Shown: positions 20,861 through 36,349 of the stretch, in pieces
Layout: each line of letters opens with the position of its first letter
Position numbering within the stretch: position 1 is the stretch's first letter
Source: Rhodopseudomonas palustris
GTDB lineage: Bacteria > Pseudomonadota > Alphaproteobacteria > Rhizobiales > Xanthobacteraceae
Direction of reading: 5' to 3'
Length of the DNA stretch: 64,000 nt
Assembly: GCF_034479375.1 (NCBI RefSeq)
Contig: NZ_CP140155.1
Span: 4,936,501 to 5,000,500, forward strand
Translations under genes and position numbers: made by a program
The notes under the pieces: generated by a model
The model's input: only the letters and a program-made list of their open reading frames with translations
Told to the model about the DNA's origin: nothing
Databases searched by the model: none

Positions 20861-21149
20861 GATGTCGTCTCCCTGATTGGTTGCGGCGGTTCGTCGATCG
20901 CACTGATGCGCGGCATGCTGCTTCAGGGCGAGCGCCGCAGGATTGACAGTAGACGCCAATTGCGGCCGCCGGCGGGTGCTCGCGCGAACACGAGCCCGCG
21001 ATGAGGGCGGATTCGCGTTACTGTTGAAACGAAGCGCCGCTCGTCTGGTCTTCCCGATCGATGCGCTTCTGATTGCAGACGGATGCGCCTTCCGGCAGGT
21101 GGTGCGGTTTTTGCTTCGCGATCGCGGCGTTTCCTCTGGATCGGTGGAC

Positions 21150-22193
21150 ATGTCTGCTTCGGGAACCATCGCCTGCGGCCCTGTGCAGCAGCTTCTGGCG
21201 GCGCTCGCTCGGTTGCGGCCGGAATCCGCAGGAATCAACGCCCGCGCGGGGATTTCACGGGCGGCCCTCGCCGATCCGTCCGAGATGCTGCCGCTGGCGG
21301 CGTTCACGTCGATGCTCGAGGCGGCTGCGCATGAAAGCGGCAATCGCACGCTCGGGATCGAGCTCGGCCGCGACTTCAAGCTCGCGGCGCTGGGGCCGAT
21401 CAGCGATCTGATGCAGACCGCCCAGACCGTGGGCGACGCGCTGGAGAGCTTCAGCGGCTTCTTCGCCAGCGTCCAGACCAGCACGCGCACGACGCTGTCG
21501 GTGAGCGACGGCATTGCGCGGCTGTCCTACGCGATCGAGGATCCGGCGATCCGGTTTCGCGAGCAGGACGCCGGCTTCTCGCTGGCGATCGAATATTCGA
21601 TGCTGGCCGGCTTTCTCGGCCCGGCGTGGCGGGCGAGCGGCGTCGAATTCGAGCACGCGGCGGGGGACGATCTGCCGTTCTATCAGCAGCATTTCGACTG
21701 CCCGCTGCGGTTCGGACGGCGCGAGAACGCGTTGCTGTTCCAGGCGCGGTGCCTCGACGTGCCGCTGAAGCAGGCGGACCGCAACCTGCACGCGCGGCTC
21801 CGTGCCGATCTCGCGGAGGCGATCCAGCGGCGGGCGACGCGGCTCGATCTGGTGCGCGGCATCGAGGCTTGGATCGCGGCGTCGCTGTGCCGCTCGGTCG
21901 CGACCGATATCGAGGTCGCCGCCGGCGATTTCGGCATGAGCACGCGGTCGTTCCAGCGCAAGCTCGCCGACCACGGCGTCAACTATCTCGACATCCGCAA
22001 CCGCGTCCGCTCGCATATCGCCAAATGCATGCTGGCCGAGACCCGCGCGCCCGTGACGTCGATCGCGCTGCAACTCGGCTACAGCGAGACCAGCGCGTTC
22101 TCACGCGGATTCAAGAGCCAGGTCGGCGAAACGCCGGTCGAGTTTCGCAAGCGTCGGCGTGGTATTGACCCTGCCGCGGCCGCTGCGGCGTGA
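21150..22193 (+). CDS. AraC-family regulator, probable activator of the amine oxidase gene
   Basis: 347 residues from ATG 21150. The N-terminal part (LPLAAFTSMLEAAAHESGNR, LEFEHA-like GVEFEHAAGDDLPFYQQHF) is the arabinose-binding-like sensor of the OruR/ArgR-type AraC group. The C-terminus has two helix-turn-helix motifs (DIEVAAGDFGMSTRSFQRKL and VTSIALQLGYSETSAFSRGF). It is transcribed away from the copper amine oxidase, with about 290 bp between the starts; this gap contains no other gene. By position it most likely senses an amine or its product and controls that gene. Confidence 0.88.
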   Translation: MSASGTIACGPVQQLLAALARLRPESAGINARAGISRAALADPSEMLPLAAFTSMLEAAAHESGNRTLGIELGRDFKLAALGPISDLMQTAQTVGDALESFSGFFASVQTSTRTTLSVSDGIARLSYAIEDPAIRFREQDAGFSLAIEYSMLAGFLGPAWRASGVEFEHAAGDDLPFYQQHFDCPLRFGRRENALLFQARCLDVPLKQADRNLHARLRADLAEAIQRRATRLDLVRGIEAWIAASLCRSVATDIEVAAGDFGMSTRSFQRKLADHGVNYLDIRNRVRSHIAKCMLAETRAPVTSIALQLGYSETSAFSRGFKSQVGETPVEFRKRRRGIDPAAAAAA

Positions 22194-22475: not shown

Positions 22476-23774
22476 TCAGCAGTCCAGCGTCATATCGCGT
22501 TCCCAGTCGGTCAGGTGCCGCGAGAACTCGTTCCATTCGTGGTGCTTGAGCTTGAGATAGGCCGGGACGTATTCGCCGAGGCTGCCCTTGAGCAGTTCGG
22601 AGGCCTCCAGCGCGCGCAGCGCGTCGAGCAGATTCAGCGGCAGCCGCTTGGCATTTTCGACCAGATGGCCTTCCTGATACATGTTGATGTCGAGCCGCTT
22701 GCCCGGATCGCGCTGGCATTCGATGCCGTCGAGGCCGGCGGCGAGGATCGCGGCCTGCATCGCGTAAGGGTTGGCGGCGCCGTCGGCGAGCCGCAGTTCG
22801 AACCGGCCGGGCTCGGGAATGCGGATCATGTGGGTGCGGTTGTTGCCCGAATAGGTCACCGAGGACGGCGACCAGGTTGCGCCCGAGGTGGTGCGCGGCG
22901 CGTTGATACGCTTGTAGGAATTGATCGTGGGGTTGAGGATCGAGGCGAGCGCGTCGGCGGAGTGGATGATGCCGCCGATGAAATTGTAGCCGAGGGGCGA
23001 GACGCCGAGTTCGCCGCCCTCGTCCTCGAAAGCGTTGGCGCCGTCCTTCCACAGCGAGACGTGGACGTGGCAGCCATTGCCGGTGAGGTTCGAGAACGGC
23101 TTCGGCATGAAGGTCGCCCGCATCTCGTGCTTCTCGGCGATCGACTTCACCATGTATTTGAAGAAGGCGTGGCGGTCGGCGGTCACCAGCGCGTCGTCGT
23201 AGTCCCAGTTCATCTCGAACTGGCCGTTGGCGTCCTCGTGGTCGGTCTGATAGGGGCGCCAGCCCAGTTGCAGCATGCCGTCACTGATTTCCCGGACCAC
23301 GTCGAAGCGCCGCATCAGCGCCGCCTGGTCGTAGCACGGCTTGGTCTGGCGGTCGGCTCCGTCCTTGATGTCGTAGCCGTCCGGGGCGATCAGGAAGAAC
23401 TCGCATTCGACGCCGCTCTTGAGCTGCAGGCCTTTCTCGGCGGCCCTGGCCTTGAGCCGCTTCAGCATGTTGCGCGGCGCCTGCTCGACCGGCTTGCCGT
23501 TCATCCACAGATCGGCGGCGAGCCAGCCGACTTCCGGTTTCCACGGCAGCTGCATCAGGCTGTCGGGATCGGGAATGGCGAACAGATCGGGGTCCGCCGG
23601 GGTCATGTCGAGCCAGGTCGCGAAACCGGCGAAGCCTGCGCCGTTCTTGGCCATCGTGGCGATCGCTTGCGCCGGCACCAGCTTGGAGCGCTGGGTGCCG
23701 AGCAGGTCCGTAAAGGAGATCAGGAAGTACTTGATGTTCTTCTCTTTGGCGGCCGCTACGAGGTCGACGGTCAT
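22476..23774 (-). CDS. gmaS: Gamma-glutamylmethylamide synthetase / glutamine synthetase type III-like
   Basis: 432 residues with the glutamine synthetase fold: GVECEFFLIAPDGYD, DHEDANGQFEMNW, NLTGNGCHVHVSLWKDG and RFELRLADGAANPY hold the catalytic Glu, His and Arg residues. Family knowledge: GmaS ligates methylamine to glutamate with ATP, the first step of the N-methylglutamate pathway; close relatives are annotated glnT. The link to mgsC-mgsB-mgsA directly upstream and the mgd genes nearby favours GmaS. It is the last gene of the minus-strand run, 32 bp after mgsC. Confidence 0.85.
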   Translation of the reverse strand: MTVDLVAAAKEKNIKYFLISFTDLLGTQRSKLVPAQAIATMAKNGAGFAGFATWLDMTPADPDLFAIPDPDSLMQLPWKPEVGWLAADLWMNGKPVEQAPRNMLKRLKARAAEKGLQLKSGVECEFFLIAPDGYDIKDGADRQTKPCYDQAALMRRFDVVREISDGMLQLGWRPYQTDHEDANGQFEMNWDYDDALVTADRHAFFKYMVKSIAEKHEMRATFMPKPFSNLTGNGCHVHVSLWKDGANAFEDEGGELGVSPLGYNFIGGIIHSADALASILNPTINSYKRINAPRTTSGATWSPSSVTYSGNNRTHMIRIPEPGRFELRLADGAANPYAMQAAILAAGLDGIECQRDPGKRLDINMYQEGHLVENAKRLPLNLLDALRALEASELLKGSLGEYVPAYLKLKHHEWNEFSRHLTDWERDMTLDC

Positions 23775-23806
23775 GGAGTCCTCTTGATGACTGGGTTGAG
23801 GCTTCG

Positions 23807-25132
23807 TCAGTAACGCTGTCCGGGAATCCAGTCGGTGCCGACCAGCGGCACGCGGGCGATCGCGGCCGCTTCGACCGTCAGGGCGACGAGATCTTCCGGC
23901 TCGAGATTGTGGATGTGGCTCTTGCCGCAGGCCCGCGCGATGGTCTGGGTCTCGAGCGTCAGCACCGACAGATAGTTGGCCAGCCGGCGGCCGGCGAGCA
24001 TCGGGTCGAGCCGGCGCGCCAGTTCGGGATCCTGCGTGGTGATGCCGGCGGGGTCGCGGCCCTCGTGCCAGTCGTCATAGGCGCCCGCATGGGTGCCGAG
24101 CGCCGCGTAGTCCTTCTCCAGGCTCGGGCTGTTGTCGCCGAGCGCGATCAGCGCCGCGGTGCCGATCGCCACCGCGTCGGCGCCGAGCGCCAGCGCCTTG
24201 GCGATGTCGGCGCCGTTGCGGATGCCGCCGGAAACGATCAGTTGCACCTTGCGATGCATGCCGAGCTCCTGCAGCGCCTCGACCGCGGGCCGGATCGCCG
24301 CCAGCGTCGGAATGCCGACGTGCTCGATGAACACTTCCTGGGTCGCGGCGGTGCCGCCCTGCATGCCGTCGATGACGATGACGTCGGCGCCGGCCTTCAC
24401 CGCCAGCGCCGTGTCGTAATACGGCCGGGAGGCGCCGATCTTCACATAGATCGGCTTCTCCCAATCGGTGATCTCGCGCAGTTCCTCGATCTTGATTTCG
24501 AGATCGTCCGGCCCGGTCCAGTCCGGATGCCGCGACGCCGAGCGCTGGTCGATGCCGGCCGGCAGCGTGCGCATCTTGCCGACGCGCTCGGAAATCTTCT
24601 GGCCGAGCAGCATGCCGCCGCCGCCGGGCTTGGCGCCCTGGCCGATCACGATCTCGATCGCGTCGGCGCGGCGCAGATCGTCCGGATTCATGCCGTAGCG
24701 CGACGGCAGGTACTGATAGATCAGCGTCTGCGAGTGGCCGCGCTCCTCCTCGGTCATGCCGCCGTCGCCGGTGGTGGTGCTGGTGCCGGCCAGCGTGGCG
24801 CCGCGGCCGAGCGCTTCCTTGGCGGCGCCGGACAGCGAGCCGAAGCTCATGCCGGCGATGGTGACGGGAATCTTCAGTTCGATCGGCTTCTTGGCGAAGC
24901 GGCTGCCCAGCACGACGTTGGTGCCGCACTTCTCGCGATAGCCTTCGAGCGGATAGCGCGACATCGAGGCGCCGAGAAACAGCAGGTCGTCGAAATGCGG
25001 CAGCCGCCGCTTCGAGCCGCCGCCGCGGATGTCGTAGATGCCGGTCGCCGCGGCGCGCTGGATTTCGGAGATGGTGTAGGGATCGAACGTCGCCGAGACC
25101 CGCGGGGTGGTGCGTGGAGAATTTGCAGACAT
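23807..25132 (-). CDS. mgsC: N-methylglutamate synthase subunit C, FMN-binding glutamate-synthase domain (GlxD-like)
   Basis: 441 residues from ATG 25132. The sequence is the FMN barrel domain of glutamate synthase: PVTIAGMSFGSLSGAAKEAL, GQGAKPGGGGMLLGQKIS, IYVKIGASRPYY, DVIVIDGMQGGTAATQE and GGIRNGADIAKALALGADAV. In MgsABC this subunit is thought to carry the synthase active site that joins methylamine nitrogen to a 2-oxoglutarate-derived carbon. The cysteine triplet that binds a 3Fe-4S cluster in full-length GltB is not seen. The frame remains open upstream into mgsB on another phase and is not used. Confidence 0.88.
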   Translation of the reverse strand: MSANSPRTTPRVSATFDPYTISEIQRAAATGIYDIRGGGSKRRLPHFDDLLFLGASMSRYPLEGYREKCGTNVVLGSRFAKKPIELKIPVTIAGMSFGSLSGAAKEALGRGATLAGTSTTTGDGGMTEEERGHSQTLIYQYLPSRYGMNPDDLRRADAIEIVIGQGAKPGGGGMLLGQKISERVGKMRTLPAGIDQRSASRHPDWTGPDDLEIKIEELREITDWEKPIYVKIGASRPYYDTALAVKAGADVIVIDGMQGGTAATQEVFIEHVGIPTLAAIRPAVEALQELGMHRKVQLIVSGGIRNGADIAKALALGADAVAIGTAALIALGDNSPSLEKDYAALGTHAGAYDDWHEGRDPAGITTQDPELARRLDPMLAGRRLANYLSVLTLETQTIARACGKSHIHNLEPEDLVALTVEAAAIARVPLVGTDWIPGQRY

Positions 25133-25143
25133 GGTCTTACCCG

Positions 25144-25833
25144 TCAGTAGGAGGCGGCGTTGTCGACATGGAAGTGGTAGAGCTCGCGCGCCGAGCCATA
25201 CATCCGGAAGTCGTCGACCTTTGCTGATCCGTCGAGCCCGGCGCGGCCGAGCAGGCCGGCCAGCCGTTCGCGGTCGGCCTCCGTCATCGGCTTCTCGATG
25301 CAGTCGGCGCCGAGGCTTTTGACCTCGCCGCGGACGAAGATCGTCGCCTCGTAGATCGAATCGCCGAGCGCTTCGCCGGCATTGCCGAGCACCACGAGGT
25401 TGCCGGCCTGCGCCATGAAGGCGCTCATCGAGCCGATCGAGCCCTTCACCAGAATGTCGATGCCCTTCATCGAGATGCCGCAGCGCGCCGAGGCGTCGCC
25501 GTCGATGATCAGCAGGCCGCCGCAGCCGGTGGCGCCGGCCGACTGGCTGGCGTCGCCCATCACATGCACGGTGCCGGACATCATGTTCTCGGCGACGCCG
25601 GTGCCGGCATTGCCGTGAATTCGCACGCTGGCGAATTTGTTCATGCCGGCGCAGTAATAGCCGACATGGCCCTTGATATCGATTTCGACCGGCACGTTGA
25701 TGCCGACGCCGATGGCGTGCTTGCCTTGCGGGTTGTCGATCTCCCACGCGGTCTCGTTGGTATCGGGCGCGAGCCGGTGGAGGGCTTGGTTCAGCTCGCG
25801 CACGGAGCTGACGGCGAGGTCACAGACAGGCAT
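25144..25833 (-). CDS. mgsB: N-methylglutamate synthase subunit B, GXGXG-repeat domain (GlxC-like)
   Basis: 229 residues corresponding to the C-terminal beta-helix (GXGXG) domain of glutamate synthase: IKGHVGYYCAGMNKFASVRI, GNAGTGVAENMMSGTVHVMG, GCGGLLIIDGDASARCGISM. In glutamate synthases this domain is structural and links the amidotransferase to the FMN domain. ATG 25833 overlaps the TAA of mgsA by one base (TAATG), and mgsC follows after 11 bp, so the three subunits are tightly coupled. Confidence 0.88.
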   Translation of the reverse strand: MPVCDLAVSSVRELNQALHRLAPDTNETAWEIDNPQGKHAIGVGINVPVEIDIKGHVGYYCAGMNKFASVRIHGNAGTGVAENMMSGTVHVMGDASQSAGATGCGGLLIIDGDASARCGISMKGIDILVKGSIGSMSAFMAQAGNLVVLGNAGEALGDSIYEATIFVRGEVKSLGADCIEKPMTEADRERLAGLLGRAGLDGSAKVDDFRMYGSARELYHFHVDNAASY

Positions 25834-26729
25834 TACGAACGTTCCCAGGCATAGACGGTGGCGGGTTCGGGCTCGAACACCCGCGCTTTTTCGATCGCGG
25901 GCAGCACCGACAGGGCGCGAAATTCCGAGCCGAAGGCGACGTAGTCGTCGGACTCGGCCATGATCGCCGGCTTGCAGGCGATCGGGTCGCGCAGCACGGC
26001 GAAGCCGTTGCGGGTGCCGACCACGAAAGTGAAGAAGCCGTCGAGATCCGAGAGGCTGGAGGTCAGCGACTGCTTGAGGCTGTCGCCCTTGCTCATCCGC
26101 CAGGTCAGATAGCCGGCGGCCACTTCCGAGTCGTTCTGCGTCGCGAAGCTCATGCCTTCGCGTACCAGCGTGCGGCGGATGCTGTTGTGGTTCGACAGCG
26201 AGCCGTTGTGCACCAGGCACTGATCCTCGCCGGTCGAGAACGGATGCGCGCCGTTGATCGTCACCGCCGACTCGGTCGCCATCCTTGTGTGGCCGATGCC
26301 GTGGCTGCCGGCCATCCCGGCCAGCGCGAATTCGCTGACGACGTGTTCGGGCAGGCCGACGTCCTTGTAGATCTCCATATGGGTGCCGACGCTGACGAGC
26401 TGAATCTGCCCCGCGCGACTCTTGACCCATTGCAGCGCTGCGGCTTCCGCGTCGCGCGGCAGCGACGCCACGATGTGATTGGCGCGGATGCTGAGATCGA
26501 CCGGCACGCCGAGCGCCGCCGAGAACTCGTTCGCCAGCGCGGCGGCCGCGCCGGCGTCCTCGGCGCGTAGCGTCAGCTTGACGTGATCGTTGTTACCGGC
26601 GCCGTAGACGGCGACGCCGGCGCTGTCCGGGCCGCGCGCCGTCATCGTCACCAGCATCTTCGACAGCATGTCGCCGAGCGCGGGCTCCAGCGCCTTGTTT
26701 TTCAGGAATAGTCCGACGATTCCGCACAT
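25833..26729 (-). CDS. mgsA: N-methylglutamate synthase subunit A, class II glutamine amidotransferase (GlxB-like)
   Basis: 298 residues. Cys2 (MCGIVGLFL) becomes the N-terminal nucleophile after Met removal; TARGPDSAGVAVYG, GIGHTRMATES, AHPFSTGEDQCLVHNGSLSN and TQNDSEVAAGYL are the substrate-binding blocks of Ntn glutaminases. In the pathway it is expected to release methylamine (or ammonia) from gamma-glutamylmethylamide. AAGGAG nine bases before ATG 26729 fixes the start exactly at the needed Cys2. First of the mgsABC-gmaS run. Confidence 0.88.
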   Translation of the reverse strand: MCGIVGLFLKNKALEPALGDMLSKMLVTMTARGPDSAGVAVYGAGNNDHVKLTLRAEDAGAAAALANEFSAALGVPVDLSIRANHIVASLPRDAEAAALQWVKSRAGQIQLVSVGTHMEIYKDVGLPEHVVSEFALAGMAGSHGIGHTRMATESAVTINGAHPFSTGEDQCLVHNGSLSNHNSIRRTLVREGMSFATQNDSEVAAGYLTWRMSKGDSLKQSLTSSLSDLDGFFTFVVGTRNGFAVLRDPIACKPAIMAESDDYVAFGSEFRALSVLPAIEKARVFEPEPATVYAWERS

Positions 26730-26795
26730 CCGATTGCTCCTTGCTGGAGCGACCATAGGCGGGAACCGTCCGGCGGGTCAACTGGGGGGAACAGA

Positions 26796-26814
26796 AGTTT
26801 CCTGCTGAGAAACT
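26796..26814. promoter_or_regulatory. Inverted repeat upstream of mgsA
   Basis: AGTTTC-ctgctga-GAAACT lies 67 bp before the mgsA start in the 132-bp gap after the XRE-cupin gene. A 6-bp arm and 7-bp spacer suit a dimeric regulator. The adjacent XRE-cupin protein is the obvious candidate, but nothing more supports the link. Confidence 0.35.
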
Positions 26815-26861
26815 AGCCCGACGGCCCGAATTTGCGGCAGGGGGCACTTTGGCATCGTCCC

Positions 26862-27521
26862 TCAGCTCCGCGGATAGACGATGATCGACAGATAGGTCAT
26901 CGGCAGTTTCACCAGCGTTTCCGGGCCGTGCAGCGCGCCGGAATCGAACAGCATCGAGTCGCCGGGCCGCAGCCGATAGGAATTGTCGCCGTGGCGGTAG
27001 ATCACTTCGCCGGTCAGCATGTAGATGAACTCCATGCCGGCGTGCTGGAACGCGGTGTGGGTGCTGGCGCCTTCCTGCAGCGTGATCAGATAGGGCTCGA
27101 CCACGACCTCGCCGCCGATCACATGGCCGAGCAACTGATACAGATGGCCGGCCTTGGAGCCGCGGCGCTCGATCGCGACGCCCTGCTTGGCGCGGACGAA
27201 GGAGCAGTCGCGCCGCTGCTCGGAGGCCGCGAACAACAGGCTGAGCGGCACGTTGAGCGCGCCCGCGATCGATTGCAGCGTCGACAGCGACGGCGAAATC
27301 TGGCCGTTCTCGATCTTCGACAGCATTCCGGCGGAGATCTTGGAGGCGCTGGAGAGGTCCGATACCGAGAGATCCCGCTCGCGTCGGATGGCGCGGATCT
27401 TGGCGCCGAGCGCGCGTTCGAGGCTTCGTTCGGTGTCCTGCGGCGCGTTCGAGCCGGTGCGATATTCGGGCGCGCCGCGGGTCGGCTCTGCGGATGGCTT
27501 GTCTGGTTTCGGCGTCTTCAT
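26862..27521 (-). CDS. XRE-family regulator with cupin sensor domain
   Basis: 219 residues: a helix-turn-helix of the lambda-repressor type (LSVSDLSSASKISAGMLSKI, SLSTLQSIAGALNVPLSLLF) and a C-terminal cupin barrel (GMEFIYMLTGEVIYRHGDNS, PGDSMLFDSGALHGPE). The N-terminal 45 residues are charged and likely disordered. GGAAG before ATG 27521 supports this start over the upstream ATG 27569. Such regulators commonly control amine or polyamine use, as PuuR does. It lies between the GlxA-type regulator and mgsA on the same strand. Confidence 0.88.
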   Translation of the reverse strand: MKTPKPDKPSAEPTRGAPEYRTGSNAPQDTERSLERALGAKIRAIRRERDLSVSDLSSASKISAGMLSKIENGQISPSLSTLQSIAGALNVPLSLLFAASEQRRDCSFVRAKQGVAIERRGSKAGHLYQLLGHVIGGEVVVEPYLITLQEGASTHTAFQHAGMEFIYMLTGEVIYRHGDNSYRLRPGDSMLFDSGALHGPETLVKLPMTYLSIIVYPRS

Positions 27522-27594
27522 CTGCTTCCGGCCTTTGATGGTGTTCTGCCTTTCGTTGTTAAAACGCATATTCCGCAGCCCAGCACCACCCTCG

Positions 27595-28563
27595 TCAGAG
27601 CCGGCGGTCGGCCGACGGCGTGCGCGCGAAGCGCTGTTTGTAGACGCGCGAGAAATGCGTGAGGCTGACGAAGCCGCAATCCGCGCCGATCTGCGTCACC
27701 GGCAACGAGGTCTGGCGCAGCAGAATCCGCGCGCGCTGCAGCCGGATCAGCAGATAGCGCCGCTCGATCGTCGTCTTCAGATGGGTTGCGAACAGCCGTT
27801 CGAGCTGCCGCAGCGAGACGCCGGCGGCGCGGGCGATCTCGGTCCGGCTCGCCGGCTCGCGCAGCCGGCGCTCCATCAGCTCGATGGCGGCTGCCACGCC
27901 GGGATGACCGAGCCGGGCGCGCTCGCGCGCATGCGGCCGCTGGCTGGAATCGCCGAGCCGCACATTGGTCTGCAGAAACCAGTCGCTGACCTTGGCGGCC
28001 AGCTCCGGGCCGTGGTCGCGGCGGATCAGCGCCTGCATCATGTCGAGGCCGGCGACGCCGCCGCCGCAGGTCAGGCGCTCGCGGTCGATCTCGAACAAAT
28101 TGCGCGTCAGGTCGAGATGCGGAAACGCCTCGGTGAAGGCCGGCGCATGCTCCCAATGGATGGTGCAGCGATAGCCGTCGAGCACCTTGGCGCGGGCGAG
28201 AATATAAGGACCGCCGGAGATGCCGCCGATCGCCACCCCGCGCCGCGCCAGCGCGCGCAGCCAGGTCATCGTGCCGCGATCGGAGAATTTGGTCGGATTG
28301 CCGCCGGCGCAGACCAGCACGATGTCGAAATCCTGCGCGCTGTCGATCGAACAGTCCGGCTTGATCGACAATCCGCTGGAGGCGGCGGTCGGCCGGCCGT
28401 CGATCGAGACGTGAAACCATTCATACAGCGTGCGCCCGGCGATGTTGTTGGCGGCGCGCAGCGGCTCGACCGCGGAGGCGAACGACATCAGCGCGAAGCC
28501 GTCGATCAGCAGGAAGCCGACCCGGGACGGGCGCGAGGCCGGCAGCGACGACGTCTTTGGCAA
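27595..28563 (-). CDS. GlxA-type AraC-family regulator (DJ-1/PfpI-like sensor)
   Basis: About 322 residues. The N-terminal domain (VGFLLIDGFALMSFASAVEP, DIVLVCAGGNPTKF, GGISGGPYILARA) is DJ-1/PfpI-like without evident protease activity; the C-terminus has the AraC double HTH (TEIARAAGVSLRQLERLFAT, VTQIGADCGFVSLTHFSRVY). No ATG is usable near the domain start; TTG 28563 with CAGGAACG eight bases before it is preferred. It is divergent from mgdA with 83 bp between them, which places it to control both arms of the pathway. Confidence 0.85.
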   Translation of the reverse strand: MPKTSSLPASRPSRVGFLLIDGFALMSFASAVEPLRAANNIAGRTLYEWFHVSIDGRPTAASSGLSIKPDCSIDSAQDFDIVLVCAGGNPTKFSDRGTMTWLRALARRGVAIGGISGGPYILARAKVLDGYRCTIHWEHAPAFTEAFPHLDLTRNLFEIDRERLTCGGGVAGLDMMQALIRRDHGPELAAKVSDWFLQTNVRLGDSSQRPHARERARLGHPGVAAAIELMERRLREPASRTEIARAAGVSLRQLERLFATHLKTTIERRYLLIRLQRARILLRQTSLPVTQIGADCGFVSLTHFSRVYKQRFARTPSADRRL

Positions 28564-28646
28564 TGGCGTTCCTGGGCAAGGGGATGTCGTTTTCAGTCTA
28601 TAGCGGGTTTCGCCGATGCGCGACAGTGCAGGCCGAAGGATCAAGC

Positions 28647-29897
28647 ATGCGCTATTCGCTGTTCTCGCTTCTCGGCAACACACTCGGCGGCCACAAGGGC
28701 TGGCAGCCGACCTGGCGCGACGCCGCGCCGAAGCCTTCTTACGACGTGGTGATCGTCGGCGGCGGCGGCCATGGACTCGCGACGGCGTATTATCTCGCCA
28801 GCCGCTACGGCGTGCGCAACGTCGCGGTGCTGGAAAAGGGCTGGATCGGCGGCGGCAATATGGGCCGCAACACCACCATCATCCGCTCCAACTATCTGTT
28901 GCCCGGCAACATCCCGCTCTACGAGCTGTCGATGAAGCTGTGGGAAGGGCTGGAGCAGGACTTCAATTACAACGCGATGGTCAGCCAGCGCGGCGTGCTG
29001 AACCTGTACCACTCCGACGCCCAGCGCGACGCCTATGCGCGGCGCGGCAATGCGATGCGGCTGCACGGCGTCGACGCCGAATTGCTCGACCGCGACGGCG
29101 TGCGCAAACTCTATCCGTTCCTGAATTTCGACGACGCCCGGTTTCCGATCCAGGGCGGCCTGCTGCAGGCGCGCGGCGGCACCGCGCGGCACGACGCGGT
29201 CGCCTGGGGCTTCGCCCGCGGCGCCAGCGATCGCGGTGTCGATATCGTGCAGAATTGCGAAGTCACCGGCATCACCATTGTCGACGGCCGCGTCACCGGC
29301 GTGGAGACCACGCGCGGGCCGATCGCTGCGGGCAAGGTCGGGATCGCCGTCGCCGGCTCGAGCTCGCGGGTCGCGGCGATGGCCGGGATGCGGCTGCCGA
29401 TCGAATCCTTCGTGCTGCAGGCGATGGTGTCGGAAGGGCTGAAGCCGATCATTCCGGGCGTCATCACCTTCGGGGCCGGACACTTCTATATCAGCCAGTC
29501 CGACAAAGGTGGCCTCGTGTTCGGCGGCGATCTCGACGGCTACAACTCCTACGCGCAGCGCGGCAATCTGCCGACCGTGGAAGACATCTGCGAGGGCGGC
29601 ATGGCGCTGATGCCGGCGATCGGCCGCGCCCGCATCCTGCGCACCTGGGCCGGCCTCTGCGACATGTCGATGGACGGCTCGCCGATCATCGATCGCACGC
29701 CGACGCGGAATCTCTATCTCAACGCCGGCTGGAATTACGGCGGCTTCAAAGCGACGCCGGGCTCCGGGCTGGTGTTCGCGCATCTGCTCGCCCGCGACGA
29801 GCCGCATCCGGCGGCGACCGAGCTGCGGCTCGATCGTTTCGCGCGCGGCGCGGTGATCGACGAAAAGGGCCAGGGCGCCCAACCGAACCTGCATTGA
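28647..29897 (+). CDS. mgdA: N-methylglutamate dehydrogenase subunit A / sarcosine oxidase beta-like subunit
   Basis: 416 residues. A Rossmann FAD motif (YDVVIVGGGGHGLATAYYLA) is followed by the DAO-type oxidase fold (GGGNMGRNTTIIRSNYLLPG, QGGLLQARGGTARHDAVAWG, NAGWNYGGFKATPGSG). In heterotetrameric sarcosine oxidases this subunit holds the covalent FMN site and the substrate-oxidising FAD. AAGGA six bases before ATG 28647 sets the start. The partner genes mgsABC and gmaS make N-methylglutamate the likelier substrate; soxB is the alternative name. Confidence 0.87.
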   Translation: MRYSLFSLLGNTLGGHKGWQPTWRDAAPKPSYDVVIVGGGGHGLATAYYLASRYGVRNVAVLEKGWIGGGNMGRNTTIIRSNYLLPGNIPLYELSMKLWEGLEQDFNYNAMVSQRGVLNLYHSDAQRDAYARRGNAMRLHGVDAELLDRDGVRKLYPFLNFDDARFPIQGGLLQARGGTARHDAVAWGFARGASDRGVDIVQNCEVTGITIVDGRVTGVETTRGPIAAGKVGIAVAGSSSRVAAMAGMRLPIESFVLQAMVSEGLKPIIPGVITFGAGHFYISQSDKGGLVFGGDLDGYNSYAQRGNLPTVEDICEGGMALMPAIGRARILRTWAGLCDMSMDGSPIIDRTPTRNLYLNAGWNYGGFKATPGSGLVFAHLLARDEPHPAATELRLDRFARGAVIDEKGQGAQPNLH

Positions 29898-29904
29898 GGG
29901 CGCG

Positions 29905-30180
29905 ATGAGAATTCCCTGCCCGTATTGCGGTTCGCGTGACGTCTCCGAATTCAGCTATCTCGGCGACGCGGCGCCGCAGCGGCCCGATCCGTCGGGCGAC
30001 GCAAGCAGCGTCGAAGCGGCGTTCTTCGACTACGTCTATCTGCGCGACAACCCCGCGGGGCCGCACCGCGGGCTCTGGTATCACGGCGCCGGCTGCCGGA
30101 GCTGGCTGGTGGTGAGGCGCAATCCCTCGACGCACGAGATCCTCGACGTCGCGCTCGCGGCGAAGGAGCCTGTGGCATGA
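29905..30180 (+). CDS. mgdB: N-methylglutamate dehydrogenase subunit B / sarcosine oxidase delta-like subunit
   Basis: 91 residues. Cys5 and Cys8 in MRIPCPYCGSRDVSEF form half of a zinc site; YLRDNPAGPHRGLWYHGAGC and RSWLVVRRNPSTHEI are the delta-subunit signature. It is a structural zinc subunit of the tetramer. It starts 7 bp after mgdA and overlaps mgdC by four bases (ATGA). Confidence 0.93.
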   Translation: MRIPCPYCGSRDVSEFSYLGDAAPQRPDPSGDASSVEAAFFDYVYLRDNPAGPHRGLWYHGAGCRSWLVVRRNPSTHEILDVALAAKEPVA

Positions 30181-33140
30181 GCGCGCCCGCACGCCTCACA
30201 GGCGGCCTGATCGATCGCGACAAGCCGCTGCGATTTTCCTTCGACGGCACGGCGATGACCGGCTTCGCCGGCGACACGCTGGCCTCGGCGCTGGTCGCGA
30301 GCGGCACCCGTCTCGTCGGCCGCTCGTTCAAATATCACCGGCCGCGCGGCATTTTCTCCGCTGGCTCCGAAGAGCCCAACGCGTTGGTCGAGCTGCGCAG
30401 CGGCGCGCGGCGCGAGCCCAACACCAAGGCGACCACGGTCGAACTCTACGACGGCCTCGAAGCGCACAGCCAGAACCGCTGGCCGTCGCTCGCCTTCGAT
30501 CTGCGCGCGGTGCATCAGTTCGCGTCGCCGCTGATCGTCGCGGGGTTCTACTACAAGACCTTCATGTGGCCGGCGTCGTTCTGGGAAAAGCTGTACGAGC
30601 CGCTGATCCGCCGCTCCGCCGGCCTCGGCCGCCTCAGCGGCGAGCCCGATCCGGATACATACGAGAAGGCCACCGCGTTCTGCGACCTGCTGATCATCGG
30701 CGCGGGGCCGAGCGGGCTCGCCGCGGCGCTGGCCGCTGGCCGCGCCGGCGCGCGGGTGATCCTCGTCGAGGAAGATTTCGGGCTCGGCGGCCGGTTGCTG
30801 TCCGAGCTCTGCGAGATCGACGGCATGCCCGGCACGGAATGGGCGCGGCTGGCGGAAACCGAACTCGCCTCGCTCGGCAACGTCCGCATCCTGCGCCGCG
30901 CCAGCGTGTTCGGGATCTATGACGATGAGTTCGGCGTGATCGAGCGCGTCGCCGATCATCTGCCGGTGCCGCCTGCGTTCACGCCGCGGCAGCGGTTGTG
31001 GAAGATCGTCGCGCGGGAGTCGCTGCTGGCGACCGGCGCGACCGAGCGGCCGATCGTGTTCGGCGGCAACGACCGCCCTGGCGTGATGCTGGCCTCGGCT
31101 GTGCGCAGCTACGTCAACCGCTTCGCCGCAGCGCCGGGACAGCGCGCGGTGGTGTTCACGACCAGCGACGACGGCTGGCGCAGCGCGGCTGATCTGCTGC
31201 GTGCTGGCGTCGAGGTCGCGGCCGTGATCGATCCGCGCCGCGACGTCGCTGCTTCCGTCCGCGCGCTCGCCGGCAACGCGCCGGTGCATCTCGGCGCGTC
31301 GGTCACCGACGCGATCGGCGGCAAGTCGCTCCGCGCCGTCGAATTCGTCGACGCAAATGACCGACGGCACAAGCTCGGCGCCGATCTGCTCGCGGTGTCG
31401 GGCGGCTGGAATCCGAACATCGCGCTCGCCACCCATCTCGGCGGCAAGGGCGAATGGAATCCCGAGACCTCGGCGTTTCTCGCCGCCGGCGCGCCGAAGG
31501 CGATGACCATCGCGGGTGCCGCCGCCGGCCGCTTCACGCTGGCGCAGTCGCTGGACGATGGCGCGCGCTGGGGCCTAGACGCAGCCTCGCGCTGCGGCCA
31601 TGCCGGCGCAGCGCAGCCGATCTATCGTGCCAGCGACGAAGCCTTCGCGGTGACGCCGCTGTGGCAGGTCGCGGGTGTCCGCGGCAAGGCGTTCGTCGAT
31701 CTGCAGAACGACGTCACGGCGGATGATATCGAGATTTCGGCGCGCGAGGGCTTCCGCTCGGTCGAACATCTCAAGCGCTACACTACGCTCGGCATGGCGA
31801 CCGATCAGGGCAAGACCTCCAACGTCAACGGCCTCGCCATCATGGCGGCGCTGACCGAACGTGGCATCGCCGCCGCCGGCACTACGCGCGCCCGGCCGCC
31901 GCAGGTCCCGGTCGCGATCGGCGCGTTCGGCGGCCTCAGCACCGGCAAGCATTTCAAGCCGACGCGGCTGACGTCGACCCATGACTGGTCCGCCCAACAG
32001 GGCGCGTCCTTCGTCGAGACCGGGCAGTGGCTGCGCGCGCAATGGTTCGCGCAGCCCGGCGAAACTGAATGGCTGCAAAGCGTGTCGCGCGAAGTGACCG
32101 AGGTGCGAAGCCGCGTCGGCATCTGCGACGTCTCCACGCTTGGCAAGATCGCGCTGTGCGGCGCCGATGTCGGCGTGTTTCTCGATCGCGTCTATATCAA
32201 CACCTTCTCCACGCTCGCAGTCGGCAAGGTGCGCTACGGCGTGATGCTGCGCGAGGACGGCTTCGTGATGGACGACGGCACCACCGCGCGGCTCGCCGAG
32301 GATCACTACGTGATGTCGACCACCACGGCGAACGCCGTGAAGGTGATGCAGCATCTCGAATTCTGCCATCAGGTGCTGTGGCCCGAACTCGACGTGCAGA
32401 TGGTGTCGGTGACCGAGCAGTGGGCGCAGGTCGCGGTCGCCGGGCCTCAGTCCCGCGCGCTTCTGCAGAATCTGTTCGGGCCGGGCGTCGATCTGTCGGA
32501 CACGGCGTTTCCCTATATGGCGTGCGGCGAATTCCGCCTCGGCGATGTGCCGGCGCGGCTGTTCCGGATCTCGTTCTCCGGCGAGCGCGCCTACGAGATC
32601 GCAGTGCCGGCGGGCTATGGCGATGCGCTGATGCGCGCGCTGATGACGGCGGGCGAAGGCCTCGGCGTGGTGCCCTACGGCACCGAGGCGCTCGGCGTGA
32701 TGCGGATCGAGAAGGGCCATGCTGCCGGCAACGAACTCAACGGCCAGACGGTGGCGCGCGATCTCGGCCTAGGCCGGATGATGTCGACCAAGAAAGACTT
32801 CATCGGCCGGGTGATGGCGGGCCGGCCCGCGCTGATCGATCCGGCGCGGCCGACACTGGTCGGGCTGCGGCCGGTCGACCGCAACGACCGCCTGCGCAAC
32901 GGCGCGCATCTGTTCGCGCCGGGCGTAACGCCCGCGCCCGAGACCGATCAGGGCTTCGTGACGTCGTCGGCGTTCAGTCCGTCGCTCGGCCACTGGATCG
33001 CGCTGGCGCTGCTGTCGCGCGGGCCGGAGCGGATCGGCGAACGCATTCGTGTGTTCGATCCGATCCGGTCGCATGATTTCGAAGCCGAGATCGTGTCGCC
33101 GGTGTTTGTCGATCCGGAAGGAGTGCGGCTGCGTGGCTGA
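30177..33140 (+). CDS. mgdC: N-methylglutamate dehydrogenase subunit C / sarcosine oxidase alpha-like subunit
   Basis: 987 residues, the standard size. In order: an N-terminal ferredoxin-like domain lacking FeS Cys (FAGDTLASALVASGTRLVGR), an NAD-binding Rossmann motif (DLLIIGAGPSGLAAALAAGR), a second nucleotide-binding region (ERPIVFGGNDRPGVML), and a GcvT-like folate domain in the last 380 residues (SRVGICDVSTLGKIALCGAD, GTEALGVMRIEKGHAAGNEL). The folate domain receives the methyl-derived carbon as 5,10-methylene-THF. Tightly coupled to mgdB and mgdD. Confidence 0.92.
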   Translation: MSAPARLTGGLIDRDKPLRFSFDGTAMTGFAGDTLASALVASGTRLVGRSFKYHRPRGIFSAGSEEPNALVELRSGARREPNTKATTVELYDGLEAHSQNRWPSLAFDLRAVHQFASPLIVAGFYYKTFMWPASFWEKLYEPLIRRSAGLGRLSGEPDPDTYEKATAFCDLLIIGAGPSGLAAALAAGRAGARVILVEEDFGLGGRLLSELCEIDGMPGTEWARLAETELASLGNVRILRRASVFGIYDDEFGVIERVADHLPVPPAFTPRQRLWKIVARESLLATGATERPIVFGGNDRPGVMLASAVRSYVNRFAAAPGQRAVVFTTSDDGWRSAADLLRAGVEVAAVIDPRRDVAASVRALAGNAPVHLGASVTDAIGGKSLRAVEFVDANDRRHKLGADLLAVSGGWNPNIALATHLGGKGEWNPETSAFLAAGAPKAMTIAGAAAGRFTLAQSLDDGARWGLDAASRCGHAGAAQPIYRASDEAFAVTPLWQVAGVRGKAFVDLQNDVTADDIEISAREGFRSVEHLKRYTTLGMATDQGKTSNVNGLAIMAALTERGIAAAGTTRARPPQVPVAIGAFGGLSTGKHFKPTRLTSTHDWSAQQGASFVETGQWLRAQWFAQPGETEWLQSVSREVTEVRSRVGICDVSTLGKIALCGADVGVFLDRVYINTFSTLAVGKVRYGVMLREDGFVMDDGTTARLAEDHYVMSTTTANAVKVMQHLEFCHQVLWPELDVQMVSVTEQWAQVAVAGPQSRALLQNLFGPGVDLSDTAFPYMACGEFRLGDVPARLFRISFSGERAYEIAVPAGYGDALMRALMTAGEGLGVVPYGTEALGVMRIEKGHAAGNELNGQTVARDLGLGRMMSTKKDFIGRVMAGRPALIDPARPTLVGLRPVDRNDRLRNGAHLFAPGVTPAPETDQGFVTSSAFSPSLGHWIALALLSRGPERIGERIRVFDPIRSHDFEAEIVSPVFVDPEGVRLRG

Positions 33141-33714
33141 GCTGATGTATCAGAGCCCCTGGCGAGCGCTCGCCCCCCGCGGCAGCGGCGACGGCGTGGT
33201 CGCCACGCCGATCGAACGCCGCGGCATCGCCACGGTGATGGCGCGCAAGGGCAGGATCGCCGAGCTGGGCGCGGCCGTGCAACGTTCATACGGCATCGCG
33301 CTGTGCGATCGGCCCAAGCGGGTCAGCGCCGCCAGCGTGACGTTTCTCGGCATCGGCCCGGGCAGATGGCTGGCGATCTCGCAGCGGCCGGAGCTCGGTT
33401 TCGTCGCGGTGCTCGGGGCGCAGCTCGACGGACTGGCGTCCGTGGTCGATCAGTCCGACGGGCTGGCGATGCTGCGCCTGTCCGGCCCGGCGCTGCCGAC
33501 GCTGCTCGAAAAAGGCTTTCAGATCGATTGCGCGGCCTTCGCCGCCGACGATTGCGCGGTGACCAGCGTGCATCACATCGGCGCGACGATCTGGGCGACA
33601 GGCGACGGCGGCTTTGCGGTCGCGGTCGCGCGCAGCCTGGTCGGCGGATTTCTGCACTGGCTCGACACCTCCGCGGCCGCCGGCGGCCTCGCGGTCGCGC
33701 CCGATCGAGGTTGA
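33133..33714 (+). CDS. mgdD: N-methylglutamate dehydrogenase subunit D / sarcosine oxidase gamma-like subunit
   Basis: 193 residues, weakly conserved but with the gamma-subunit pattern (ASVTFLGIGPGRWLAISQRP, LRLSGPALPTLLEKGFQIDC, HIGATIWATGDGGFAVAVAR). GTG 33133 is chosen since GGAAGGAG lies nine bases upstream and it overlaps the mgdC stop; ATG 33145 is too far from any ribosome site. It helps shape the folate cavity in known structures. Confidence 0.87.
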   Translation: MAELMYQSPWRALAPRGSGDGVVATPIERRGIATVMARKGRIAELGAAVQRSYGIALCDRPKRVSAASVTFLGIGPGRWLAISQRPELGFVAVLGAQLDGLASVVDQSDGLAMLRLSGPALPTLLEKGFQIDCAAFAADDCAVTSVHHIGATIWATGDGGFAVAVARSLVGGFLHWLDTSAAAGGLAVAPDRG

Positions 33715-33779
33715 AGCCTCTCGTTCTGTTCTGAATTCGACGCGGATTCCCCGCGCGCTTCCGCATGGAGTATCTTCCG

Positions 33780-34643
33780 ATGCCTCACACCAATGTCGTG
33801 CTGTCGCTGTCCTGCCGCGACCAGCCGGGAATCGTCGCAGCCGTCGCCAAGGCGCTGTTCGACGCCGGCTGCAATGTCGTCGAGGCGCATCAGTTCAACG
33901 ATGCCGAGACGCATCTGTTCTTCATGCGGATGCGGTTCGCGATGCTGAAGCCGGACGCCAGCATTGCGGCGCTCGAGGCCGCCTTCGAGCCCGTCGCCGA
34001 CGAGTTCGGCATCAATTGGACGATGCGCAGCCTCAGCGAGAAGCAGCGGGTGATGATCCTGGTGTCGAAATTCGATCATTGCCTCGCCGATCTGTTGTAT
34101 CGCTGGCGCAGCGGCGAGATCGCGATGGACATCGCAGGCATCATCGCCAACCATCCGCGCGAGACCTACGCGCATCTCGATCTCGACGGCATTCCGTTCC
34201 ACTATCTGCCGGTCACCAAGCCGACCAAGATGGAGCAGGAGGCGCAGGTCTGGGAACTGATCCGCGCCGCCAACACCGACCTCGTCGTGCTGGCGCGCTA
34301 CATGCAGGTGCTGTCGGACGGGCTGTGCGCCAAGCTCGCCGGTCGCTGCATCAACATCCATCATTCGTTTTTGCCGGGCTTCAAGGGGGCGCGGCCGTAT
34401 CACCAGGCGTTCGAACGCGGCGTCAAGCTGATCGGCGCCACCGCGCATTACGTCACGCCCGATCTCGACGAAGGCCCGATCATCGAGCAGGACGTCGAGC
34501 GCATCAGCCATCACAATTGCGTCGAGGATCTGGTGCGCAAGGGCCGCGAAATCGAACGCCGCGTCCTCGCCCGCGCCATCACCTGGCACATCGACGGCCG
34601 CGTCATCGTCAACGGCACGAAGACGGTGGTGTTCAAGGATTGA
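33780..34643 (+). CDS. purU: Formyltetrahydrofolate deformylase
   Basis: 287 residues: an N-terminal ACT-like domain (VLSLSCRDQPGIVAAVAKAL) and a formyltransferase domain with the catalytic Asn and His in CINIHHSFLPGFKGARPYHQ and the Asp in DLDEGPIIEQDV. The enzyme releases formate and THF from 10-formyl-THF. Placed 65 bp behind mgdD, it can drain one-carbon units produced by demethylation. GGAG nine bases before ATG 33780 supports the start. The same sox-purU order is known from sarcosine operons. Confidence 0.95.
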   Translation: MPHTNVVLSLSCRDQPGIVAAVAKALFDAGCNVVEAHQFNDAETHLFFMRMRFAMLKPDASIAALEAAFEPVADEFGINWTMRSLSEKQRVMILVSKFDHCLADLLYRWRSGEIAMDIAGIIANHPRETYAHLDLDGIPFHYLPVTKPTKMEQEAQVWELIRAANTDLVVLARYMQVLSDGLCAKLAGRCINIHHSFLPGFKGARPYHQAFERGVKLIGATAHYVTPDLDEGPIIEQDVERISHHNCVEDLVRKGREIERRVLARAITWHIDGRVIVNGTKTVVFKD

Positions 34644-34833: not shown

Positions 34834-36105
34834 TTACAGCTTCAGCTCGTGCCGCCCCACCACCATCCAGTGCACTTCATCCGGACCGTCGGCGAAGCGG
34901 AGGTGGCGGACGTCGGTGTACATCTCGGCCAGTGGGGTCCATTGCGAGATGCCGGTGGCTCCGTGCATCTGGATCGCCTGGTCGATGATCTTGCAGGCGC
35001 GCTCGGGCACCATGGCCTTGACCATGCTGACCCAGACGCGGGCTTCCTTGTTGCCGAGCACGTCCATCGCCTTGGCGGCCTTCAGCACCATCAGCCGCAT
35101 CGCCTCGATCTCGCAGCGGGCCTGCGCGATGATCTGCAGATTGCCGCCGAGATGCGCGATCTTCTGGCCGAAGGCTTCGCGGGTGAGGCCGCGCGCGACC
35201 ATCATGTCGAGCGCCTTCTCGGCCTTGCCGATGGTGCGCATGCAGTGATGGATGCGGCCGGGGCCGAGCCGGAGCTGCGAGATCTCGAAGCCGCGGCCCT
35301 CGCCGAGCAGGATGTTCTCCTTCGGCACCCGCACATTGTTGAAGCGCATGTGCATGTGGCCACGCGGCGCGTGGTCGTGGCCGAACACGTGCATCGGGCC
35401 GATCACTTCGACGCCGGGGGTGTCGACCGGCACCAGGATCTGCGACTGCTGCTTGCTGGGCGCTGCGGTCGGGTCGGTCTTGACCATCACGATCATGATC
35501 TTGCAGCGCGGGTCGCCGAGCCCGGAGATGTAGTACTTCTCGCCGTTGATCACCCACTCGTCGCCGTCGAGCTTGGCCGAGGTCGAGACGTTCTTGGCGT
35601 CGGAGGAGGCGACGTTCGGCTCGGTCATCACATAGGCCGAGCGGATCTCGCCGTTCAGCAGGGGCTTCAGCCACTTCTCCTTCTGGGCCGGCGTGCCGAC
35701 GCGTTCCAGCACTTCCATGTTGCCGGTGTCGGGCGCCGAGCAGTTCATCACTTCGGAAGCGAGCGGCGCCTTGCCGAGTTCGGCCGCGATATAGGCGTAG
35801 TCGAGATTCTTCAGGCCTTCACCGGTGTCGGCGTCGGGCAGGAAGAAGTTCCAGAGGCCGACTTCCTTCGCCTTGTTCTTGGCCTTGCCGAGAATTTCGA
35901 GCTGCTTGTCGGTGAACGACCAGCGGTTCGGGTTGCCTTCGCCGGCCGCCTCGAATTCGTGCGACATCGGCTCGACGGTTTCGGCAATGAACTTCTTGAC
36001 GTGGTCGTACAGCGGCCGGACCTTCTCCGACATCCGCAGATCGTTCAGTTCGTCTTCGGGTGCAAGGGTGTAGGGGGTCTGGCGGGGCACATAGGCCAAT
36101 TCCAT
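34834..36105 (-). CDS. Acyl-CoA dehydrogenase (ACAD10/11-like)
   Basis: 423 residues with the full ACAD fold: SAYVMTEPNVASSDAKNVST and EWVINGEKYYISGLGDPRCK bind FAD and substrate; the C-terminal helix bundle has REAFGQKIAHLGGNLQIIAQ and DQAIQMHGATGISQWTPLAE. Length and the MHGATGISQ block match the ACAD10/11 group rather than short-chain enzymes. The catalytic base could not be placed with certainty. It is a single gene with repeats on both sides; the acyl substrate is unknown. Confidence 0.9.
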   Translation of the reverse strand: MELAYVPRQTPYTLAPEDELNDLRMSEKVRPLYDHVKKFIAETVEPMSHEFEAAGEGNPNRWSFTDKQLEILGKAKNKAKEVGLWNFFLPDADTGEGLKNLDYAYIAAELGKAPLASEVMNCSAPDTGNMEVLERVGTPAQKEKWLKPLLNGEIRSAYVMTEPNVASSDAKNVSTSAKLDGDEWVINGEKYYISGLGDPRCKIMIVMVKTDPTAAPSKQQSQILVPVDTPGVEVIGPMHVFGHDHAPRGHMHMRFNNVRVPKENILLGEGRGFEISQLRLGPGRIHHCMRTIGKAEKALDMMVARGLTREAFGQKIAHLGGNLQIIAQARCEIEAMRLMVLKAAKAMDVLGNKEARVWVSMVKAMVPERACKIIDQAIQMHGATGISQWTPLAEMYTDVRHLRFADGPDEVHWMVVGRHELKL

Positions 36106-36256
36106 CGTATCGTCCTCCCGATGTGATCATCGCGTTTCCCCATCCTGACTGGATGGTTGAGGACCCTTTATAGGCACGAACGCGCGGCGTTGTCGAAGGC
36201 CGTGTCGAAGGCCCGCATTGCAGGAGCGCGATAGCAAACGGGCAGCATCTCTCCGC

Positions 36257-36348
36257 GCGTCATGCCCGGGCTCGTCCCGGGAATCCACGCCTCAACAGCG
36301 TCGATGTGATCAAGAGCGTGGATGGCCGGGACAAGCCCGGCCATGACG
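36257..36348. repeat. Interspersed palindromic repeat, family D
   Basis: CGTCATGCCCGGGCTCGTCC / GGGAATCCACG faces CGTGGATGGCCGGGACAAGC / CCGGCCATGACG. The outer ends are complementary (CGTCATG…CATGACG), so the whole unit can fold as one cruciform. Confidence 0.8.
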
Positions 36349-36349
36349 G

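Follow-up and report, generated by a model that had tools for sequence, protein, structure and literature searches.

The window analysed here is a stretch of 64,000 nucleotides of Rhodopseudomonas palustris (G000:C1:4936501-5000500), taken from a genome assembled as a single contig of 5,305,909 bases. Positions 22476-34643 of this window contain eleven intact genes, all with open frames and no internal stops, which very probably encode a complete N-methylglutamate pathway for the use of methylamine, with ammonia as the gain. The minus strand carries gmaS, mgsC, mgsB, mgsA, an XRE-cupin gene and a GlxA-type regulator gene, while mgdA, mgdB, mgdC, mgdD and purU lie on the plus strand (Table 1). 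The initial annotation had described gmaS, mgsABC, mgdABCD and purU as a whole set, with an XRE-cupin and a GlxA-type regulator between the arms, and the family matches, including the HTH_3/Cupin_2 and PF01965/PF12833 domains of the intact regulator genes, confirmed this description. The cluster is of an ordinary, already known pathway kind, including its divergent arms, its regulators and PurU. The early reading of the genes was right, and that of the physiology was reasonable.

The first enzyme of the synthesis arm, GmaS, passed the type III ligase model TIGR03105 (690 bits, cut-off 470) and was 68% identical to the crystallised RhGmaS of Rhodovulum (PDB 7cql). In the alignment, D178, E187 and R313 correspond to the catalytic Asp177, Glu186 and Arg312 of RhGmaS. 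Furthermore, W301 and A49 correspond to Trp300 and Ala48, which take the places of the flap Glu and the Asp50-loop Asp of glutamine synthetases, respectively. All residues tested for ATP, glutamate, Mg and the methylamine pocket were identical to those of RhGmaS, whose roles in catalysis and at these sites are described in PMC7948447. A quick tree of 44 rows placed the window GmaS with RhGmaS in a 21-row set (SH-like approximate likelihood ratio test, SH-aLRT, 98), and 36 GmaS rows formed one set (90), with the genome's own two glutamine-synthetase-like proteins outside it; some outgroup branches were very long, and the order among outgroups was not used. A grouping with glutamine synthetases had been named beforehand as a possible refutation, and the tree gave the grouping with RhGmaS instead. 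The identification of GmaS as a plain glutamine synthetase was ruled out by this tree together with W301, A49, D178, E187 and R313.

In the oxidation arm, SoxB-, SoxD-, SoxA- and SoxG-type subunits are all encoded in one operon, mgdABCD. MgdA and MgdC exceeded the soxB and soxA cut-offs (TIGR01373, 688 vs 529 bits; TIGR01372, 1355 vs 1164 bits), while MgdB and MgdD scored under those of soxD (99.9 vs 116.5) and soxG (73 vs 144). The stretch RGGTARHD of MgdA aligns with RAGIAKHD of sarcosine oxidase 2gag_B, and we take its His to be the carrier of flavin mononucleotide (FMN). The low score of MgdD agrees with the divergence of this subunit reported in PMC5023235. A second sarcosine-oxidase alpha subunit was sought in the genome and discarded, the sole other match to MgdC being a GcvT-type frame of 394 aa. 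PurU surpassed its TIGR00655 cut-off (347 vs 286 bits), and the genome's other PurU, located elsewhere, was 62% identical to it.

The window genome was grouped with 15 others in one genus, giving 16 Rhodopseudomonas genomes for comparison. A GmaS-type protein (at least 61% identity per piece) was found in seven of these, the other nine having only distant synthetases, and MgdC and the cluster-type PurU were present in the same seven. Among the carriers, G013 is a draft of ~800 contigs in which gmaS is split between two frames (L108, C505), MgdC is a fragment and PurU is in two pieces. The nine non-carrier genomes each have one PurU (59-63% identical), taken as housekeeping; this housekeeping PurU was also observed in six of the seven carriers and was not found in G010.

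These genes and residues were observed, and the order of reactions proposed for them, like the physiology, is modelled on studied relatives. GmaS would ligate methylamine to glutamate with ATP, and MgsABC would convert the product to N-methylglutamate. In this step, MgsA would probably free methylamine and hand it over to MgsC at its FMN site, which free methylamine may also enter directly, and MgsC would form N-methylglutamate and NH3 from glutamate and methylamine with a hydride borrowed via FMN. MgdABCD would oxidise N-methylglutamate to glutamate and pass the one-carbon (C1) unit to tetrahydrofolate (H4F), after which FolD, encoded elsewhere, and PurU would release it as formate for oxidation by formate dehydrogenase, leaving ammonia as the net gain.

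The three proteins MgsA, MgsB and MgsC match glutamate-synthase domains and represent separate GltB1-, GltB3- and GltB2-type subunits adjoining gmaS, an adjacency seen in most loci compared. The initial annotation had also stated that every checkable active-site motif was present, which held for the tested residues of GmaS and is to be qualified for MgsC, where D333, W355 and D360 replace the cysteines at the CX5CX4C 3Fe-4S ligand positions of glutamate synthase. CCC is retained in two other proteins of this genome, GltB and one that is GltB2-like. Among 60 close MgsC homologues (matches over 270 residues, window MgsC counted), all three iron-sulfur (Fe-S) cysteines were missing in 54, many of the rows being close kin, with 16 Methylobacteriaceae in the MgsC tree. 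This survey excluded L001, L004, L084-L089 and L108 (genome copies counted elsewhere, or the window), so that G013 (L108/L089) lies outside the count, its segment also being without Cys; the short second MgsC copies of L038 and L040 were left out of both the tree and the counts. A GltD-like neighbour accompanied 9 of 9 distant Cys-bearing homologues and none of the 54 Cys-less ones. The family search gave no GltD-like gene among the eleven cluster genes, and no such neighbour was found for any of the 60 close rows. The predicted structure of MgsC keeps the FMN-domain fold of glutamate synthase; the model used came from a 38-row alignment including distant rows (predicted local distance difference test, pLDDT, 79), and one from 31 close sequences (pLDDT 48.5) was not used.

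From these sequences we infer that MgsABC is a redox-neutral N-methylglutamate synthase: MgsC is without Fe-S ligands, and the hydride would therefore be taken from glutamate via FMN and returned with no electron feed. For the origin of this type, we lean slightly towards a glutamate synthase that lost GltD first and then the Fe-S cluster, becoming a redox-neutral amine-exchange enzyme whose FMN lends the glutamate hydride to the N-methyl imine, alongside a second, GltD-equipped and cluster-keeping synthase in marine proteobacteria that is partly (3/9 loci) under the same palindromic operator as described below. The redox-neutral reaction itself is not new, as PMC6237917 cites Pollock and Hersh 1971 and 1973 (the 1973 title naming the use of FMN); the same article states the redox cofactors of the enzyme as a gap. 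No published Fe-S analysis of N-methylglutamate synthase was found in a limited literature search, and the ligand loss bears on the unsettled mechanism of this enzyme. In Methyloversatilis universalis, mutation of mgsC abolishes methylamine use according to PMC5023235.

Possible, although doubtful, is a reductive MgsABC that works like glutamate synthase or glutamate dehydrogenase on 2-oxoglutarate and methylamine, the latter from gamma-glutamylmethylamide or free, with electrons from some donor. Schemes of this kind are set out in PMC6237917, with NADPH or reduced ferredoxin as possible donors, and in PMC10781810, and they are consistent with the retained fold of MgsC and with Cys2 of MgsA, conserved in 52 of 52 loci. 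However, the Fe-S cysteines are all missing in the window MgsC and in 53 of 59 other close homologues, and the GltD-like neighbour is found for none of the 60 rows.

Other forms of the synthase were observed in nine proteobacterial gmaS clusters from metagenome bins taken as largely marine (L033, L038, L040, L045, L051, L057, L068, L073 and L077). These carry another mgsABC set with the Fe-S cysteines and a GltD-like gene, which by its sequence is possibly a second kind of N-methylglutamate synthase. In two of these GltD-equipped clusters, an extra FMN-domain protein of 327-328 aa, ~25-27% identical to MgsC, is encoded upstream of gmaS (L038:7294-8280, L040:8848-9831). Additionally, a gmaS-mgsC-mgdA stretch (L080) is labelled as a Klebsiella pneumoniae metagenome-assembled genome; its MgsC groups with gammaproteobacterial bins, and the label is probably wrong.

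Regarding the fate of carbon and nitrogen, the genome gave one match each for FolD and the ammonium transporter AmtB, and matches over cut-off for the formate dehydrogenase alpha subunit and for four RuBisCO-family proteins. Searches for Fae and formyl-H4F synthetase (FTHFS), which were successful in 2 and 4 of 14 control genomes, respectively, found neither in this genome. With FolD and formate dehydrogenase present and Fae and FTHFS absent, methylene-H4F can therefore go to formate and CO2 and would not enter the serine cycle by the usual route. This gene content fits methylamine as a nitrogen source, possibly also as an electron source, rather than classical methylotrophy. An Agrobacterium study by Chen et al. 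reportedly concerns the pathway in nitrogen nutrition, and PMC5023228 describes the pathway as serving nitrogen nutrition in non-methylotrophs. Among the titles and abstract openings listed in a literature search, none reported methylamine as a nitrogen source in R. palustris; such use, a prediction supported by gene content, is expected for the window strain and for four other Rhodopseudomonas species with GmaS of at least 81% identity.

It is rather unlikely that methylamine also serves as a carbon and energy source via formate, formate dehydrogenase and the Calvin cycle. The formate dehydrogenase and RuBisCO-family matches would allow this, but classical C1 assimilation is precluded since Fae and FTHFS were not found, and Calvin-cycle growth on methylamine is conjecture. 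Very improbable is a cluster that acts mainly on another substrate, such as ethylamine or N-methylglutamate derived from other compounds, with methylamine being secondary. Mgd is reported in homarine catabolism (PMC13390433), and many loci have no mgd match in the DNA around gmaS-mgs; against this, the methylamine-site residues of RhGmaS are all conserved, and the synthesis arm occurs together with the mgd arm in 7/7 carrier genomes. Hardly credible is a glutamine synthetase paralogue plus a sarcosine oxidase with no N-methylglutamate pathway, as suggested by public annotation that uses glnT and sarcosine oxidase subunit names for such genes (relatives of GmaS often being annotated as glnT, type III glutamate--ammonia ligase), since both the tree and the diagnostic residues of GmaS contradict it and mgsABC mostly adjoins gmaS.

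The enzyme genes are tightly packed inside each arm, with gaps of -8 to 50 bp. Both regulator genes are on the minus strand in the same direction as the synthesis arm, and the gaps around them, calculated from inferred starts, are 132 bp (xre to mgsA), 73 bp and 83 bp (GlxA start to mgdA). The divergent promoter region is therefore the 83 bp between glx and mgdA. The starts of mgsA (26729, MCGIVG with the catalytic Cys2), mgsC (25132), mgsB (25833) and mgdD (33133) were inferred, as were those of the regulators.

The XRE-cupin protein, with HTH_3 and cupin domains, obtained 57.5 bits against the PuuR equivalog model and did not reach the cut-off of 211; by its sequence it is related to PuuR but is not PuuR itself. 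The mgsA gene was present at 50% identity or more in 49 of 80 loci. Of the 43 loci whose DNA extends 2 kb or more beyond mgsA on the upstream side, 22 have an XRE homologue at most 1.5 kb ahead of this gene, and 29 have one at any position. A homologue of the GlxA-type regulator was divergent from mgdA (at most 500 bp) in 5 of 6 loci with a 70%-type mgdA, and was unmatched in the surrounding DNA of 11 of 12 rows with a 40-70%-type mgdA, the exception being L013 (68%). According to PMC13390433, TmaR of Ruegeria pomeroyi is an AraC-type activator encoded beside mgdABCD and essential for methylated amines; it switches on both gmaS-mgs and mgd, and its signal is a product formed from methylamine. 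The GlxA-type protein shares with TmaR the AraC-type DNA-binding domain and the position of its gene beside mgd, and on this likeness it is probably a TmaR-like activator of mgd.

A single sigma-70-like site was detected in 26650-28700, against 0.1 expected from shuffles; it is on the minus strand immediately ahead of mgsA, and the palindrome TTTCYTNNNARGAAA lies at 26798-26812, 16 bp upstream of its -35 box. In the window alone, two matches at no more than two mismatches are not unusual (15/100 shuffles), and the case for an operator therefore rests on conservation. With at most one mismatch, the palindrome was found in 32 of 53 mgsA upstream regions, compared to 35 of 2700 pieces drawn at random from these loci, and in 21 of the 32 positive regions it stands exactly 16 bp before TTGA. 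The upstream set comprised mgsA matches of at least 50% that start at residues 1-3, and the count omitted the duplicates L103, L105 and L106 as well as L028, whose upstream sequence is too short. The exact palindrome with TTGA at 14-17 bp has a single occurrence in each of 18 loci, from 14 genomes, among the 169 loci searched, and three of the 18 (L040, L057 and L073) have it upstream of the GltD-equipped mgs type. Its place ahead of the -35 box suggests an activator site. The XRE-cupin protein probably controls gmaS-mgs through this palindrome. G009 has a second copy with one mismatch (L131:18359-18373), where the transporter gene that runs divergently from xre begins.

Several observations weigh against parts of this picture. 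Six of the 60 close MgsC homologues have the full cysteine triad but no GltD-like neighbour, and on the tree they are nested among Cys-less rows. MgsA and MgsB each retain three invariant or nearly invariant cysteines, and another cluster site is possible because of these. The specificity of Mgd for N-methylglutamate over sarcosine is derived from context, namely linkage to gmaS-mgs in 7/7 genomes. The cluster contains no dedicated importer. Assignment of the palindrome to XRE or GlxA by co-occurrence was attempted and abandoned, as it was present in 25 of 38 loci whose surrounding DNA has an XRE homologue and in 7 of 15 whose DNA has none, and the two groups were not separated by it. Finally, GmaS may not be obligatory, because PMC6237917 describes it in M. 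extorquens DM4 as required for methylamine as a carbon source but dispensable for methylamine as a nitrogen source, and reports that P. putida with N-methylglutamate synthase but without GmaS still formed some N-methylglutamate. By analogy, a gmaS mutant here may still use methylamine nitrogen, and the unaffected mutant that the initial annotation proposed as a refutation would be a weak one because of the dispensability in strain DM4.

In three sibling genomes (G010, G014 and G009), the arms flank a block of ~10 kb (L129:2147-10040, L130, L131) that encodes a urea-type ATP-binding cassette (ABC) transporter, composed of a substrate-binding protein, two permeases and two ATPases, together with a 146-aa frame and a 799-aa dimethylformamidase-like protein. 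The 799-aa protein matches the large subunit of N,N-dimethylformamidase (PDB 6lvb, 532 bits), and the 146-aa frame matches the small subunit 6lvb_B marginally (E 0.11); the family also includes another amidase kind (8i5a, 8huy). Within the transporter, the first permease and one ATPase exceeded the UrtB and UrtD cut-offs, and the binding protein scored under that of UrtA. As second permease, the frame L103:12936-13961 was rejected, since it has no family match and an overlapping frame does. Tyr399, Tyr440 and Glu521, presumably the Fe ligands of dimethylformamidase, were read as conserved in the alignment of the 799-aa protein. Our guess for the substrate of the block is N-methylformamide, giving methylamine and formate. 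In G009, a frame between the arms (L131:9472-10506) has a weak match to glycine-betaine monooxygenase (GbcA).

The block is absent between the arms in the window and in G008, and the 799-aa protein has no match in the window genome. G008 and G015 have only 42-43% relatives of it, elsewhere in the genome; overall, a relative was present in 6/7 GmaS carriers and 0/9 non-carriers. In the trees of both arms, the window and G008 pair (100) and are nested within G010, G014 and G009, and by this nesting the block was lost in the ancestor of the window and G008. A recent insertion in the siblings was ruled out by the same trees. G015 is also without the block, so that two losses explain the pattern as well as a single gain with a single loss. 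Without the block, free methylamine would be the likely substrate, perhaps entering via AmtB. Through the block, the pathway in this genus is linked to formamide-type substrates, and genomes with and without it form a natural gain/loss pair.

Outside the genus, the same block adjoins xre in Bradyrhizobium sp. Leo170 (L005). Plasmid pAMI5 of Paracoccus aminophilus encodes a 71% relative of the 799-aa protein, and the 42 kb examined contain no pathway gene, while PMC4543880 places the pathway of this organism on pAMI6; on pAMI5, a gene annotated as biphenyl 2,3-dioxygenase follows this DmfA2 relative. In P. aminovorans, dimethylformamidase is cited upstream of the N-methylglutamate pathway in PMC11381386.

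Beside gmaS, at 18902-22193, lie two further genes: one on the minus strand for a copper amine oxidase, with its start probably at 20860, and one for an AraC regulator of the QhpR family (260.5 bits against a cut-off of 250). Since a Qhp amine dehydrogenase is listed among methylamine-responding genes of Methyloversatilis in PMC5023235, the cluster may have another amine route next to it. Downstream of purU, 34834-37317 contain genes for an acyl-CoA dehydrogenase and an aspartate/glutamate racemase-family protein, with no pathway link seen.

Table 1. Features of the N-methylglutamate pathway cluster in window coordinates.
Feature	Position	Strand	Evidence
gmaS, gamma-glutamylmethylamide synthetase, 432 aa	22476..23774	-	TIGR03105 690 bits; 68% to RhGmaS 7CQL
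mgsC, FMN/synthase-domain subunit of predicted N-methylglutamate synthase, 441 aa	23807..25132	-	3Fe-4S Cys positions are D333, W355, D360
mgsB, GXGXG-domain subunit, 229 aa	25144..25833	-	PF01493; homologues of at least 55% in 53 loci
mgsA, class II glutamine-amidotransferase subunit, 298 aa, N-terminal Cys2	25833..26729	-	PF13522/PF13537; Cys2 in 52/52 loci
Predicted mgsA promoter, TTGACC-18 nt-TATGGT	26752..26781	-	sole sigma-70-like match in 26650-28700
Candidate operator, palindrome TTTCYTNNNARGAAA, 1 mismatch here	26798..26812		conservation upstream of mgsA
XRE-cupin regulator	26862..27569, start 27569 or 27521	-	HTH_3 + Cupin_2
GlxA/AraC regulator (DJ-1/PfpI + HTH_18), TmaR-like position	27595..28563	-	PF01965, PF12833; TTG start inferred, open frame to 28683
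mgdA, N-methylglutamate dehydrogenase beta-type subunit, 416 aa	28647..29897	+	TIGR01373 688 bits, PF01266; aligns to sarcosine oxidase (TSOX) 2gag_B over 390 residues
mgdB, delta-type subunit, 91 aa	29905..30180	+	PF04267; TIGR01374 99.9 bits, under cut-off 116.5
mgdC, alpha-type subunit with GcvT-like folate domain, 987 aa	30177..33140	+	TIGR01372 1355 bits; PF01571, PF17806, PF13510
mgdD, gamma-type subunit, 193 aa, GTG start	33133..33714	+	TIGR01375 73 bits, under cut-off; no Pfam family
purU, second, cluster-specific formyl-H4F deformylase, 292 aa	33765..34643	+	TIGR00655 347 bits

Compared with known systems, MgsABC resembles bacterial GltB in its three GltB-type domains, its N-terminal Cys and its FMN-domain fold, and differs from it in being split into three genes, without the Fe-S Cys triad or a GltD partner. 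At the level of the whole cluster, M. extorquens DM4 has mgsABC-gmaS with a divergent mgdABCD (Gruffaz et al., cited in PMC6237917), and Methylorubrum/Methylobacterium carry the same enzymes in the same divergent arms as the window. Two Methylorubrum loci are 73-74% (GmaS), 84-85% (MgsC) and 75-76% (MgdA) identical to the window, but these two stretches gave no match to purU or XRE, both of which the window has. Furthermore, M. extorquens assimilates carbon via the serine cycle according to PMC6237917, in contrast to the window genome without Fae and FTHFS. The plasmid pSH1 of Sphingobium xenophagum, arranged as GlxA, mgdABCD-purU-folD, XRE and mgsABC-glnT, shares the enzymes, both regulator types and purU; it differs in having folD inside the cluster, all genes after GlxA in one direction, a plasmid location and an integrase gene nearby. 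In Ruegeria pomeroyi, PMC13390433 describes an AraC-type regulator gene beside mgdABCD and gmaS-mgsABC as one operon, as in the window, with tmm, tdm and dmm in addition. The sibling genomes have the same arms, 77-99% identical per protein to the window in G010 and G014 and 43-89% in G009, and differ by the five-gene urea-type ABC transporter and the dimethylformamidase-like gene between the arms.

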